From Actinomycetes bacterium (GTDB lineage: Bacteria > Actinomycetota > Thermoleophilia > Solirubrobacterales > 70-9): 64,000 nucleotides of DNA. The stretch covers positions 248,001 through 312,000 of the forward strand of contig BOKP01000004.1 of the NCBI GenBank assembly GCA_016861045.1. The letters are read 5' to 3'. The notes below the pieces were generated by a model. The model was given only the letters and a program-made list of their open reading frames with translations. It was not told the DNA's origin and made no database searches. How positions within the stretch are numbered: position 1 is the stretch's first letter; the number at the start of each line of letters is the position of its first letter. The translations under genes and the position numbers were made by a program. Positions 15,896 through 24,234 of this stretch are shown here, piece by piece.

Positions 15896-17700
15896 TGACG
15901 CACGAGGTCGAGCCCGGGCGCCCGCGGGCGCTCGTCGTCTCCCGTCGCGGGCGCTTCCGGGTCGGTGAGCCGCTGTTCGAGCGCGGGCCGCAGGTGAGCC
16001 TCGCCCGCGGGCGCGTCGACGTCGGCCCCGGAGGGATCGCGCTCTGCCGGATCGACCGGCGCGGCGGGCAGCCGATCGCCGACCTCGGGCGCGCCGATCG
16101 CGCGCGCGACGTCGTCGCGGCGCTGCTCGCCGACCGCGGCCTGCGCCCGACCTTTCGCGACCGCCACGAGCGGGAGGCGCGCGACGTCGTCGCCCGGCTC
16201 GAACGGGACGCGGGGCCGCGGCGCGACCTGACCGCGGAGCCGACCTTCACCGTCGACCCGGCGAGCGCCCGCGACTTCGACGACGCGGTCTCGGCCCGCG
16301 CCGAGGGCGACGGCTTCCGGGTCTGGGTCCACATCGCCGACGTCGCCGCCCACGTCAAGCCCGAGAGCGGTCTCGACCGCGAGGCGCTCTCGCGTGGCAA
16401 CTCGACCTATGCTCCGGGCACCGTCAGCCCGATGCTGCCCGCGGCGCTGAGCAGCGACGCGTGCAGCCTCAACCCCGGGGTCGAGCGGCTCGCGGTCACC
16501 GCCGAGATCGAGCTCGCCGGGTCCGGTGAGCCCGTCGCGTCGTCCTTCTACCGCTCGCGGATCCGCTCCGACGCGCGCCTCGACTACGACCGTCTCGACC
16601 GCGTCTTCGCCGGTGCCGAGCCGGCTCCGGAGCCGGTTGCCGCCGCGATCGCCGCCGTGCGCAGGGCGACCGCGGCCATCGCGGGCGCCAGGCTCGGGGA
16701 GGGCTTGGCCGTCAGCAGCGCCGAGCCCGAGTTCACCTTCACGCCGTCCGGCGACGTCGAGGGCGCCCACGCGCTCGTCCAGACCGAGGCCCACCGGTTG
16801 ATCGAGAGGCTGATGATCCTGACCAACGAGCTCGTCGCGCGGTTGCTCGAGCGCAGGCGCGTGCCGACGCTCTACCGGGTCCACGAGCAGCCCGATCCGG
16901 CCCGGGTGCGTCTGCTGATCGACCAGCTCGCGGCGCTCGACGTCCCGACGCCGGCGCTGGCGAAGACCGCGGGGCCGGCCGAGGCGGGCGCGGCCGCGGT
17001 CGAGGCGAGCCGGCTCGTCGCCGCCGAGGCGGAGCGGCGCGGCCATGGCGCAGCCAGCCTCTCGTCGCTCGTCCTGCGAGCGCTCAAGCAGGCCCGCTAC
17101 AGCGAGGTCAACCTCGGCCACGCCGGCCTCGGCAGCGTCGCCTACGCGCACTTCACCTCCCCGATCCGCCGCTACCCGGACCTGATCGCCCACCGGGGGC
17201 TGCTCGCGGCGATCGGCGGCGGCGAGCAGCCGCCGGGCGCGCACGAGGCGGCCGGCGCTGCCGTCCACTGCTCCGACACCGAGCGGGACTCGATGCGGAT
17301 CGAGCGCGACGGGGACGACATCTGCGCCGCCTTCCTGCTCCGGCGCGAGCTCTTCGAGCGCGGCCCGGAGGCGAGGTTCGCGGGCGAGGTCTCCGGGGTG
17401 ATCCCCGCGGGTGCTTTCATCCGCTTCGGTGGCGAGCGCGCGGACGTCTACGAGGGTTTCCTGCCGGCCCGGCGGATGCCGGGCGACCGCTTCGAGATCA
17501 ACGAGGTCGAGTCGGCCTTGATCGGGATCCGGACGGGTCGCAGGGTCGGGATCGGCGACGCGGTCGAGGTCGCTGTCGACGCCGTCGAGCCGGCCCGGGG
17601 GCGGGTCGACCTCAGCGTGGACCGCGATGGCGACCGCGACGGGCGTCCGAGCCGGCGCCCCCCGGGACGGGGGCGGCAGGCGGGACGGGGGCGGCGATGA
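15892..17700 (+). CDS. RNB-domain exoribonuclease (RNase II/R family)
   Basis: A 602-residue 3'-5' exoribonuclease. The N-terminal ~115 residues form a short region in place of the usual tandem cold-shock domains. The RNB catalytic domain starts with FTVDPASARDFDDAVSA, whose Asp residues bind the metal, and continues through HIADVAAHV and YAHFTSPIRRYPDLIAHR. A C-terminal S1 domain (GVIPAGAFIRFGG) is followed by an Arg/Gly-rich tail. RNase R works with tmRNA-SmpB to degrade nonstop mRNA, so its overlap with smpB makes functional sense. It is shorter than E. coli RNase R (813 residues). Start GTG at 15892 or ATG at 15895 cannot be told apart. Confidence 0.9.
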   Translation: MMTHEVEPGRPRALVVSRRGRFRVGEPLFERGPQVSLARGRVDVGPGGIALCRIDRRGGQPIADLGRADRARDVVAALLADRGLRPTFRDRHEREARDVVARLERDAGPRRDLTAEPTFTVDPASARDFDDAVSARAEGDGFRVWVHIADVAAHVKPESGLDREALSRGNSTYAPGTVSPMLPAALSSDACSLNPGVERLAVTAEIELAGSGEPVASSFYRSRIRSDARLDYDRLDRVFAGAEPAPEPVAAAIAAVRRATAAIAGARLGEGLAVSSAEPEFTFTPSGDVEGAHALVQTEAHRLIERLMILTNELVARLLERRRVPTLYRVHEQPDPARVRLLIDQLAALDVPTPALAKTAGPAEAGAAAVEASRLVAAEAERRGHGAASLSSLVLRALKQARYSEVNLGHAGLGSVAYAHFTSPIRRYPDLIAHRGLLAAIGGGEQPPGAHEAAGAAVHCSDTERDSMRIERDGDDICAAFLLRRELFERGPEARFAGEVSGVIPAGAFIRFGGERADVYEGFLPARRMPGDRFEINEVESALIGIRTGRRVGIGDAVEVAVDAVEPARGRVDLSVDRDGDRDGRPSRRPPGRGRQAGRGRR

Positions 17701-18155
17701 GCGACCGCGGGCCGGACGTGGCCACCAACCGGGCCGCCCGGCACGCCTACGAGATCGTCGAGACGTTCGAGGCCGGCATCGCCCTGACGGGCACGGAGGT
17801 CAAGTCGCTGCGGGACGGCAAGGCCCGCCTGCAGGACTCCTACGCGGCGATCGAGGAGGGGGAGCTGCAGCTCCGGGGCGCCTACATCCCGCCCTACCCG
17901 CCGGCCCGCGACAACCATGATCCCGAACGCCCGCGGAAGCTGCTCATGCACCGCTGGGAGATCGAGCGCCTGATCGGTCGCATGCAGCGCAAGGGCCTGA
18001 CGCTGATCCCGACCCGGATCTACTTCAAGGGCAGGCGCGCCAAGGTGGAGCTGGCGCTGGCGCGGGGCAGGCAGCAGCGGGACAAGCGCCGCCAGATCCG
18101 CGATCGCGACGTTGCGCGGGACATCGAGCGCGAGATCAAGCATCGCAACCGCTGA
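17697..18155 (+). CDS. smpB: tmRNA-binding protein SmpB
   Basis: A 152-residue SmpB, which binds tmRNA and guides it into stalled ribosomes for trans-translation. Family marks are NRAARHAYEIVETFEAGIAL, the tRNA-domain-binding strand LTGTEVKSLRDGKARLQDSY, and PYPPARDNHDPERPRKLL. The basic C-terminal tail (KRRQIRDRDVARDIEREI) is the helix that reads the empty mRNA channel. ATGA overlap with the RNB gene. The tmRNA gene itself is 3 kb downstream. A 10-bp hairpin over the stop codon closes the operon. Confidence 0.97.
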   Translation: MSDRGPDVATNRAARHAYEIVETFEAGIALTGTEVKSLRDGKARLQDSYAAIEEGELQLRGAYIPPYPPARDNHDPERPRKLLMHRWEIERLIGRMQRKGLTLIPTRIYFKGRRAKVELALARGRQQRDKRRQIRDRDVARDIEREIKHRNR

Positions 18156-21256: not shown

Positions 21257-21624
21257 GGGGGCGAACCAGATTCGACGTGAACGGTTCTCGTCCCGGTGTT
21301 GCGAGTCGAGGTCCCTGGGCCGGCCTCGTTAAAAAGCCCAGGAAAACCAAGAAGTGCGGACTCTCACGAGTTCGCTCTCGCTGCCTAAGGCAGTCTGAGA
21401 GCAGTCGCCCCGGGCCGCCCACGCCCCGGGTAGCGGCTTCATCATGTGGGCTCACCCGACCGGCAGCTTCCTCGGCCGGACGGGGACACCACCAGGAGGA
21501 TCTGGCGCCGGCGACGTGCCCCTCGGATCGACCGAGCCGGATGCCGAGAGAGACTCCGTAGGGAACGCTCGTTGACGCATCGGGGCGTCCTTCGCGGACG
21601 CCGGGGCAGTACCGGCCGCCTCCA
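21257..21624 (+). ncRNA. ssrA: tmRNA (transfer-messenger RNA), tag ADSHEFALAA
   Basis: tmRNA rescues ribosomes stalled on broken mRNA by adding a degradation tag. The 5' end GGGGGCGAACCAGATTCGACG is canonical, and its first seven bases pair with CGCCTCC at 21617-21623. The tag frame reads GCG GAC TCT CAC GAG TTC GCT CTC GCT GCC TAA, that is ADSHEFALAA and stop, close to the ADSH...ALAA tags of actinobacteria. A P2 helix can be drawn between CCCGGTGTTGCGAG and CTCGTTGACGCATCGGGG. Two oddities: the T-arm is GCCGG-GGCAGTA-CCGGC, so its loop is not the usual TTCRANY, and CCA is not encoded (TCCATCG follows). A TACAAT -10 box lies at 21227. SmpB is encoded 3 kb upstream. Confidence 0.9.
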
Positions 21625-21654
21625 TCGCTCGCCATCGGCAACAATACGCCGGCG

Positions 21655-22893: not shown

Positions 22894-22980
22894 TCAGGTC
22901 CCCGGGCGGGAGCCGTCGAGGTCGAGCTCGCGCTCGATGGTGCGGAGGGCGTCGTCGCCGATCTCGCCATCGTCGCGCAT
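22894..22980 (-). pseudogene. Possible 3' remnant of a CPA1 Na+/H+ antiporter gene, or a 28-residue ORF
   Basis: The ORF reads MRDDGEIGDDALRTIERELDLDGSRPGT. From memory of the family, many actinobacterial CPA1-type Na+/H+ antiporters end in a cytoplasmic helix of the form GEIxDExxRRxERELDLEExR, so this resembles an orphaned C-terminus. No membrane-spanning sequence precedes it; the upstream DNA is the HMG-CoA reductase promoter. It ends 6 bp before the phosphatase start and could be translated with it. The evidence is resemblance only. Confidence 0.3.
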
Positions 22981-23040
22981 CCGGGGCCGGATCGAGTCGC
23001 CGGGCTCCTCCGCTCGCGGCCGCGGTCGTGGCCGCTCGGC

Positions 23041-23046
23041 GATAAT
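23041..23046 (+). promoter_or_regulatory. -10 box of a probable leaderless promoter for HMG-CoA reductase
   Basis: GATAAT lies exactly six bases before the GTG at 23053, so transcription should begin at or next to the start codon. No good -35 box and no ribosome-binding site are seen, consistent with a leaderless actinobacterial message. Confidence 0.55.
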
Positions 23047-23052
23047 CCCACC

Positions 23053-24234
23053 GTGAGCGACGAGCGAGCGAGAGCGCGGGTCCCGCGCGACGCCGAGGAC
23101 GACTACACGCCCGCGGCCGCCGAGCGCCGGCGCGAGTTCCTCGCCGGGCGGGCCGGCGCCGGGCTCGGCCACGTCGGCAGCTTCTCCTTCGATCCCGCGG
23201 TCCTGCCGGGGAACATCGAGAGCTTCATCGGGGTCGCACAGGTGCCGATCGGGGTCGCCGGGCCGCTCCTGGTCGACGGCGAGCACGCCAAGGGGGAGTT
23301 CTACGTGCCGCTGGCGACGGCGGAGGGAACGCTGGTCGCGAGCTACAACCGCGGCATGAAGCTGCTCCACGAGGTCGGCGGCGTGAAGACGACGATCATG
23401 GACGACGCGATGCAGCGGGCGCCGTCGTTCCTGTTCGCCAGCGCCCGCGAGGCGCGTCAGTTCGGGGTCTGGCTCGACGAGCACTTCGGCGAGGTCAAGG
23501 CGGCGGCCGAGGCGACGACCTCCTCGGGCCGCCTTCGCGACGTCGAGCAGTACTCGGCCGGGCGGATCCTGTTCACGCGCTTCAACTACACGACCGGCGA
23601 CGCGGCCGGCCAGAACCTCTCCGGCAAGGCGACGGCGGCCGCCTGCGCCTGGATCCTCGCCAACTGCCCCGACGTCGAGCAGTTCTTCCTCGAGTCGAAC
23701 TTCGCGACCGACAAGAAGAGCTCGCAGGTGAACATGCTGCGGACCCGCGGCAAGCGGGTCGTCGCCGAGGCCGTGATCCCGAACGAGCTCGTCGCTCGCG
23801 TCATGCGCTCCGACACCGAGCTGATGTTCAAGGCCCGCCAGGTCTCCAACCTCGGCGGCTTCATGTCCGGCGTCAACAACAACGGGTCCCACTCCGCCAA
23901 CGGCATCACGGCGATGTTCATCGCCACCGGCCAGGACGTCGCCAACGTCGCGGAGTCGTCGGCCGCCTTCGTCTACGCCGAGCTCCGCGACGGCGGCGAC
24001 TACTACTACTCGGTGACGATCCCCTCCCTGATCGTCGCCACCTACGGCGGCGGCACCGGCCTGCCGACCCAGCGCGAGTGCCTCGAGCTGCTCGGATGCG
24101 CCGGCGCCGGCAAGGTCAACAAGCTCGCCGAGATCGTCGCCGCGACCGTCCTCTGCGGCGAGCTCTCGCTCGGCTCGGCGATCGTCGCCGAGGAGTGGGT
24201 CGCCGCCCACGACCTCTACGGGCGGAACCGCTGA
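23053..24234 (+). CDS. Divergent HMG-CoA reductase
   Basis: A 393-residue hydroxymethylglutaryl-CoA reductase, which yields mevalonate for isoprenoids or a related product. The GTG at 23053 replaces the far-upstream track start, which lies in antisense of the phosphatase gene. Catalytic residues can be placed: Glu in ATAEGTLVAS, Lys in TDKKSSQVN, Asp in GQDVANVAES and His near the end in AAHDLYGRN. GGGTGLPTQRECLELLG is also typical. The class I cofactor motif DAMGMNM is replaced by DAAGQNL, so this belongs to a divergent bacterial group and cofactor choice is uncertain. No other mevalonate genes are in the window. Confidence 0.87.
   Translation: MSDERARARVPRDAEDDYTPAAAERRREFLAGRAGAGLGHVGSFSFDPAVLPGNIESFIGVAQVPIGVAGPLLVDGEHAKGEFYVPLATAEGTLVASYNRGMKLLHEVGGVKTTIMDDAMQRAPSFLFASAREARQFGVWLDEHFGEVKAAAEATTSSGRLRDVEQYSAGRILFTRFNYTTGDAAGQNLSGKATAAACAWILANCPDVEQFFLESNFATDKKSSQVNMLRTRGKRVVAEAVIPNELVARVMRSDTELMFKARQVSNLGGFMSGVNNNGSHSANGITAMFIATGQDVANVAESSAAFVYAELRDGGDYYYSVTIPSLIVATYGGGTGLPTQRECLELLGCAGAGKVNKLAEIVAATVLCGELSLGSAIVAEEWVAAHDLYGRNR

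Follow-up and report, generated by a model that had tools for sequence, protein, structure and literature searches.

An actinobacterial one-piece tmRNA with coupled D-loop and T-loop changes known from alphaproteobacterial two-piece tmRNAs

Few tertiary contacts in biology are as conserved as the elbow formed by the D-loop and the T-loop, and to our knowledge natural replacements of it that keep the fold are rare. According to the literature, G18 of tRNA reaches into the T-loop and contacts Psi55, the U54–A58 pair closes the loop, and the G19–C56 pair forms the exposed face (PMC4810234, PMC7912444); for transfer-messenger RNA (tmRNA), PMC3968760, citing Barends 2002, gives the D-loop/T-loop contact as required for SmpB binding and function. 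The present analysis concerns the tmRNA gene (ssrA) of an Actinomycetes bacterium (Thermoleophilia, Solirubrobacterales), which lies in a stretch of 64,000 nucleotides (GenBank assembly GCA_016861045.1, contig BOKP01000004.1, positions 248,001–312,000 of the forward strand), referred to below as the window. Both loops of its tRNA-like domain differ from the standard ones, and the two differences go together.

The two-piece tmRNAs of Alphaproteobacteria (Rfam RF01849; Caulobacter) have, like the window tmRNA, a GGCRG T-loop together with an AG D-loop. The swap is the rule among them, and in many the T-loop reads GGCAGTA, letter for letter the loop of the window. The Caulobacter two-piece tmRNA reportedly functions (work of Keiler in 2000), and this, together with its G55, is the strongest evidence at hand that a tmRNA with G55 can be active. 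Unlike these circularly permuted genes with two RNA pieces, the window gene is one-piece, has the usual order and encodes no CCA. The permuted layout of RF01849, with the 3′ part of the acceptor upstream of the 5′ part, was not found, as the 5′ end, tag and 3′ end lie in one continuous RF00023 match, and the window tmRNA branches with actinobacterial tmRNAs. With the standard one-piece tmRNAs (RF00023) it shares the G3–U70 acceptor pair, a tag ending in ALAA, an end-to-end match to the model and a nearby smpB gene, but it has GGCAGTA and A18 where they have TTCRANY and G18. The mitochondrial tmRNA of Reclinomonas americana, which is organellar and two-piece, resembles it in the T-loop: two guanines replace U54 and U55, a change noted in PMC1168896 (2005), with no comment on the D-loop in the section consulted. 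The same section records a G in place of U342, i.e., position 55, in Caulobacter tmRNA. Thus, G55 in Caulobacter was published previously; the coupling to the D-loop, of which no description was found in the literature searched (older papers on two-piece tmRNA may mention it), and its recurrence are reported here. In the window, the swapped elbow known by sequence from Alphaproteobacteria occurs in a one-piece tmRNA, and it is shown here to be a coupled and recurrent state.

Covariance-model search confirmed the identity of the gene, which had been proposed in a sequence-only reading of the window. The RF00023 match (positions 21257–21627) spans the whole model with 95.1 bits (threshold, 47; E-value, 8e-36), and it is the sole above-threshold tmRNA in the 2.7 Mb genome; no second, normal tmRNA reached the threshold elsewhere. 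The acceptor stem GGGGGCG/CGCCTCC holds G3–U70, and A73 is present, both being features for alanylation. The tag ends in ALAA followed by the stop, and the tags of relatives likewise end in EFALAA. In the predicted fold of the T-arm, a stem of 5 bp carries a loop of 7 nt, its stability not exceeding that of shuffled sequences, and the 7-nt loop with both stems contiguous rules out a group I intron. The usual combination of TTCRANY with a GG D-loop, which is non-defining in that alphaproteobacterial tmRNAs lack it, is replaced by GGCAGTA with AG. The sequence-only reading had called the 5′ end, tag frame and acceptor stem canonical; the tag frame and stem are, but the D-loop is not (CCAGATTCGAC, with A18 replacing G18 at 21268), and this had gone unnoticed. 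The T-loop letters had been read correctly, yet placed one base off, at 21606–21612. As was stated, the loop breaks with an RNA motif of exceptional conservation, but the implied error or impaired D-loop contact was not supported, since relatives share the loop, the D-loop partner of residue 55 is changed too, and many alphaproteobacterial two-piece tmRNAs have GGCAGTA as well. The end TCCATCG, without an encoded CCA, was also verified (discriminator A21624, then TCG). Inspection of the listed gene ends revealed CCA after the discriminator in none of 30 tRNA genes read from the same genome, and in most tmRNAs of the order the final CTCCA is continued by letters other than CCA. An end without encoded CCA is ordinary here and no defect. 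All 30 of these tRNA genes keep TTCRA, which rules out an organism-wide T-loop change.

The comparison with close relatives drew on 61 genomes, from the genus up to the family and order. The loop GGCAGTA is found exactly in two congeners (G001, G002), GGCAGTG in another genus and TGCAATT in one more genus, while every other T-loop read is TTCRANY. The D-loop CAGA(A/T)TCGAC is present in exactly the five variant genes, the others having a GG-type loop. When numbering is right-anchored on the conserved TCGAC, A18 stands for G18 and G19 is kept; A18 was found in all nine variant tmRNAs of the order, and G18 in all 27 canonical ones compared.

The coupling was then examined from both sides. In the forward scan, 84,980 genomes were searched for an A18 5′ end irrespective of the T-loop, and, with four non-tmRNA matches and two genes cut by contig ends set aside, G55 was found in every tmRNA with a readable T-loop. 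These A18/G55 genes belong to Thermoleophilia, Acidobacteriota, Chloroflexota, Symbiobacteria-like and other Bacillota, and to alphaproteobacterial two-piece genes with the loop GGCAGTA or GGCGGTA. The reverse scan, for G55-type T-arms in 399 genomes of the window's class irrespective of the D-loop, gave 18 matches, eight of which are tmRNAs (three of them from a second family), and all eight have A18.

A census of five major bacterial groups, including about 40 genomes each of Chloroflexota, Bacillota, Acidobacteriota and Alphaproteobacteria, was made by covariance model, with low-scoring matches also kept to avoid losing variants. Loops were read by script from stem pairing rather than from loop letters, and failures were read by hand. 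Among the resulting 227 genes, 164 combine a GG D-loop with TTCGA or TTCAA, 63 combine AG with KGCRR (GGCAG, 35; GGCGG, 18; TGCAA, 9; TGCGA, 1), and none is mixed. T54 always occurs with A58 and G54 always with G58, the latter combination being confined to genes with A18/G55, which suggests an order of events; G19 and C56 are invariant. A group, swapped-elbow tmRNAs, was accordingly set up for genes having A18 and G55, either U54–A58 or G54/G58, and unchanged G19 and C56. The window tmRNA has A18, G55, G54/G58, G19 and C56. A single two-piece alphaproteobacterial tmRNA (L316, genome G450) has GG with TTCGAC and is canonical at all sites, unlike the 37 others assigned in the sample of its class; it represents either a reversion or the ancestral state.

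Because the D-loop carries a matching change and this paired swap recurs in unrelated phyla, a working alternative elbow is most likely rather than a defect, and we are fairly confident that the window tmRNA is functional, with alternative, mutually fitted contacts in its tRNA-like elbow. The inner contact G18–Psi55 would be replaced by A18/G55 and the closing pair U54–A58 by G54/G58, with the outer pair G19–C56 unchanged. If residues 18/55 and 54/58 touch as in tRNA, two inner layers would have been exchanged as pairs with the outer pair kept, so that the fold and the ribosome-facing surface would probably be preserved. The modifications m5U54, Psi55 and m1A58 would be absent from the GGCRG form because their target bases are gone, and charging, SmpB binding and activity are predicted for the window tmRNA. 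Support comes from the letters at the four sites, the strict coupling in 227 genes, the several origins described below, the intact tag, G3–U70 and stems, and the lack of a second tmRNA. Several points weigh against this interpretation. The geometry of the A18/G55 and G54/G58 pairs, as well as function, is deduced from sequence comparison. One alphaproteobacterial gene (L311) is unassignable owing to an extra D-loop base, and two viral genes are similar. The census groups were partly picked because variants had been seen there, and an 11-gene subset was selected on A18. Finally, no SmpB residue separating variant from canonical genomes of the order was found.

In a cross-phylum tmRNA tree that leaves out the elbow and the acceptor, the variants fall among tmRNAs of their respective phyla, and parsimony with weak nodes collapsed requires at least six changes; the Alphaproteobacteria, which stood outside this tree, count as one further change. 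Hence, the coupling is not a single inherited accident. The swap had several origins, although the precise count hinges on a tree of short, divergent sequences. For the order, a tmRNA tree with the elbow masked unites its nine variants in a single long-branched clade with support 1.0, and about thirty alignment columns spread over the RNA distinguish them from the 27 canonical tmRNAs. In the rpoB tree, the same variant genomes are scattered and adjoin canonical relatives; both tmRNA types occur within one genus twice (G005/G015; G280 and G361/G296), and in the SmpB tree, too, the variants are scattered in keeping with the species pattern. One smpB gene (L128, on contig G006:C32) is far in sequence from those of its relatives, and this short contig is probably foreign, i.e., contamination of a metagenome assembly. 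The disagreement of the tmRNA clade with the rpoB and SmpB trees suggests that one ssrA has displaced the other between lineages, which is the simplest and likeliest cause. Alternatively, the patchiness may reflect two ancient ssrA paralogs with differential loss instead of transfer. Both forms lie about 1–12 kb from smpB where the genes share a contig, and double ssrA genes do occur (G373, G497), but no genome with both types was found, and the presence of both within one genus twice would require long coexistence; paralog loss is thus possible, though we lean against it. A broader proposal seems to us evenly balanced between right and wrong: that, besides the G18–Psi55/U54–A58 elbow regarded as nearly universal, A18/G55 with G54/G58 is a second self-consistent elbow state, at which tmRNAs have arrived more than once along one set route (18 and 55 together, then 54 and 58) and which needs no T-loop modification, and that in Solirubrobacterales-like actinobacteria the swapped ssrA displaced the standard one without its SmpB.

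It might also be supposed that the altered loops are no longer in contact and are both read by a co-changed protein, SmpB or another, given that the D-loop and T-stem are where SmpB binds (PMC3989591). Co-change of SmpB was rejected, as within the order no residue tracks the tmRNA type and SmpB proteins group by species instead, and the invariance of G19 and C56 in the census is what is expected if the elbow still forms. Such a reading is therefore improbable. A decaying or inactive tmRNA, its loss made up for by other rescue factors, would fit the score of 95 bits, against roughly 130–195 bits in most relatives, but is very unlikely: the tag frame, G3–U70, acceptor and T-stems and smpB gene are all intact, the changes come as a coupled set and not at random, the GGCAGTA loop is constant across species whose tmRNAs differ elsewhere, and the same loop is found throughout Alphaproteobacteria. 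A sequencing or assembly error at 21600–21612 could have scrambled the T-loop alone between two perfect stems, but it is practically dismissed by the same seven letters in independent assemblies of two congeners, six of the seven in another genus, and the matching D-loop change 340 bases away.

The swapped elbow also bears on gene detection. ARAGORN reported no tRNA and no tmRNA in the window; it recovered none of 10 one-piece GGCAG genes tested, and all of the TGCRA (4/4) and TTCRA (3/3) genes. The main search behind the 2025 tmRNA database was made by Aragorn and BLASTN (PMC11915505), and since ARAGORN misses one-piece GGCAG genes, this form is probably under-represented there. Such genes will be annotated too seldom, and trans-translation may be wrongly recorded as absent from some species. 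Moreover, four bases that change in strict concert, and have done so several times, provide a natural test of what the elbow contact needs and of why tRNAs do not use the swap.

The coordinates of the features are given in Table 1. No consensus promoter or T-run terminator was found at the tmRNA gene, a search that is uninformative in high-GC DNA.

Table 1. Features of the tmRNA gene and its protein partner in the window (tRNA numbering for single residues)
Feature	Position	Strand	Basis
tmRNA gene ssrA, one-piece, 368 nt up to the discriminator base	21257..21624	+	Rfam RF00023, model 1-374
Acceptor stem 5′ strand GGGGGCG, including G3 of the alanine identity pair G3-U70	21257..21263	+	Sequence, Rfam alignment
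D-loop AACCAGATTCGAC; A18 = 21268, G19 = 21269	21264..21276	+	Comparison with tmRNAs of the order
Tag frame ADSHEFALAA, stop TAA	21356..21388	+	Sequence; GCG at resume codon in Rfam alignment
T-stem 5′ strand GCCGG	21600..21604	+	Rfam alignment, stem-pairing read, fold
T-loop GGCAGTA (G54 G55 C56 A57 G58 T59 A60)	21605..21611	+	Same letters in G001, G002
T-stem 3′ strand CCGGC	21612..21616	+	Rfam alignment, stem-pairing read, fold
Acceptor 3′ strand CGCCTCC, then discriminator A without an encoded CCA	21617..21624	+	Sequence, Rfam alignment
smpB, protein partner, 3.1 kb upstream of the tmRNA gene	17697..18155	+	NCBIfam TIGR00086, 163 bits, over cut-off

No known phage or plasmid source of the window tmRNA was found, blastn giving no match in either annotated collection. 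IMG/VR contigs with this T-arm mostly carry permuted genes of the alphaproteobacterial type. Such T-arms were observed on at least 120 viral contigs (L376–L495), in 100 of which a 5′ piece with an AG D-loop lies just downstream, so that phages too carry the swapped elbow. Six of these loci (L395, L424, L430, L436, L468 and L485) have a GGCAG T-arm and an acceptor ending in CCA, immediately followed by a protein frame, and the 5′ part of a tmRNA was not recognized within the next 200 bases; they are possibly acceptor pieces without a coding piece.

In the census, the T-loops of four genes from Bacillota and Acidobacteriota (L254, L257, L299 and L309) are interrupted after TTCGAT, which fits the known group I intron form. 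The double tmRNA genes are both canonical in G373 (L326, L343) and both AG/TGCAA in G497 (L301, L302). Downstream of the tmRNA gene, the window contains an open frame at 22900–24234 (+), which we take to resemble HMG-CoA reductase, unusual for an actinobacterium.
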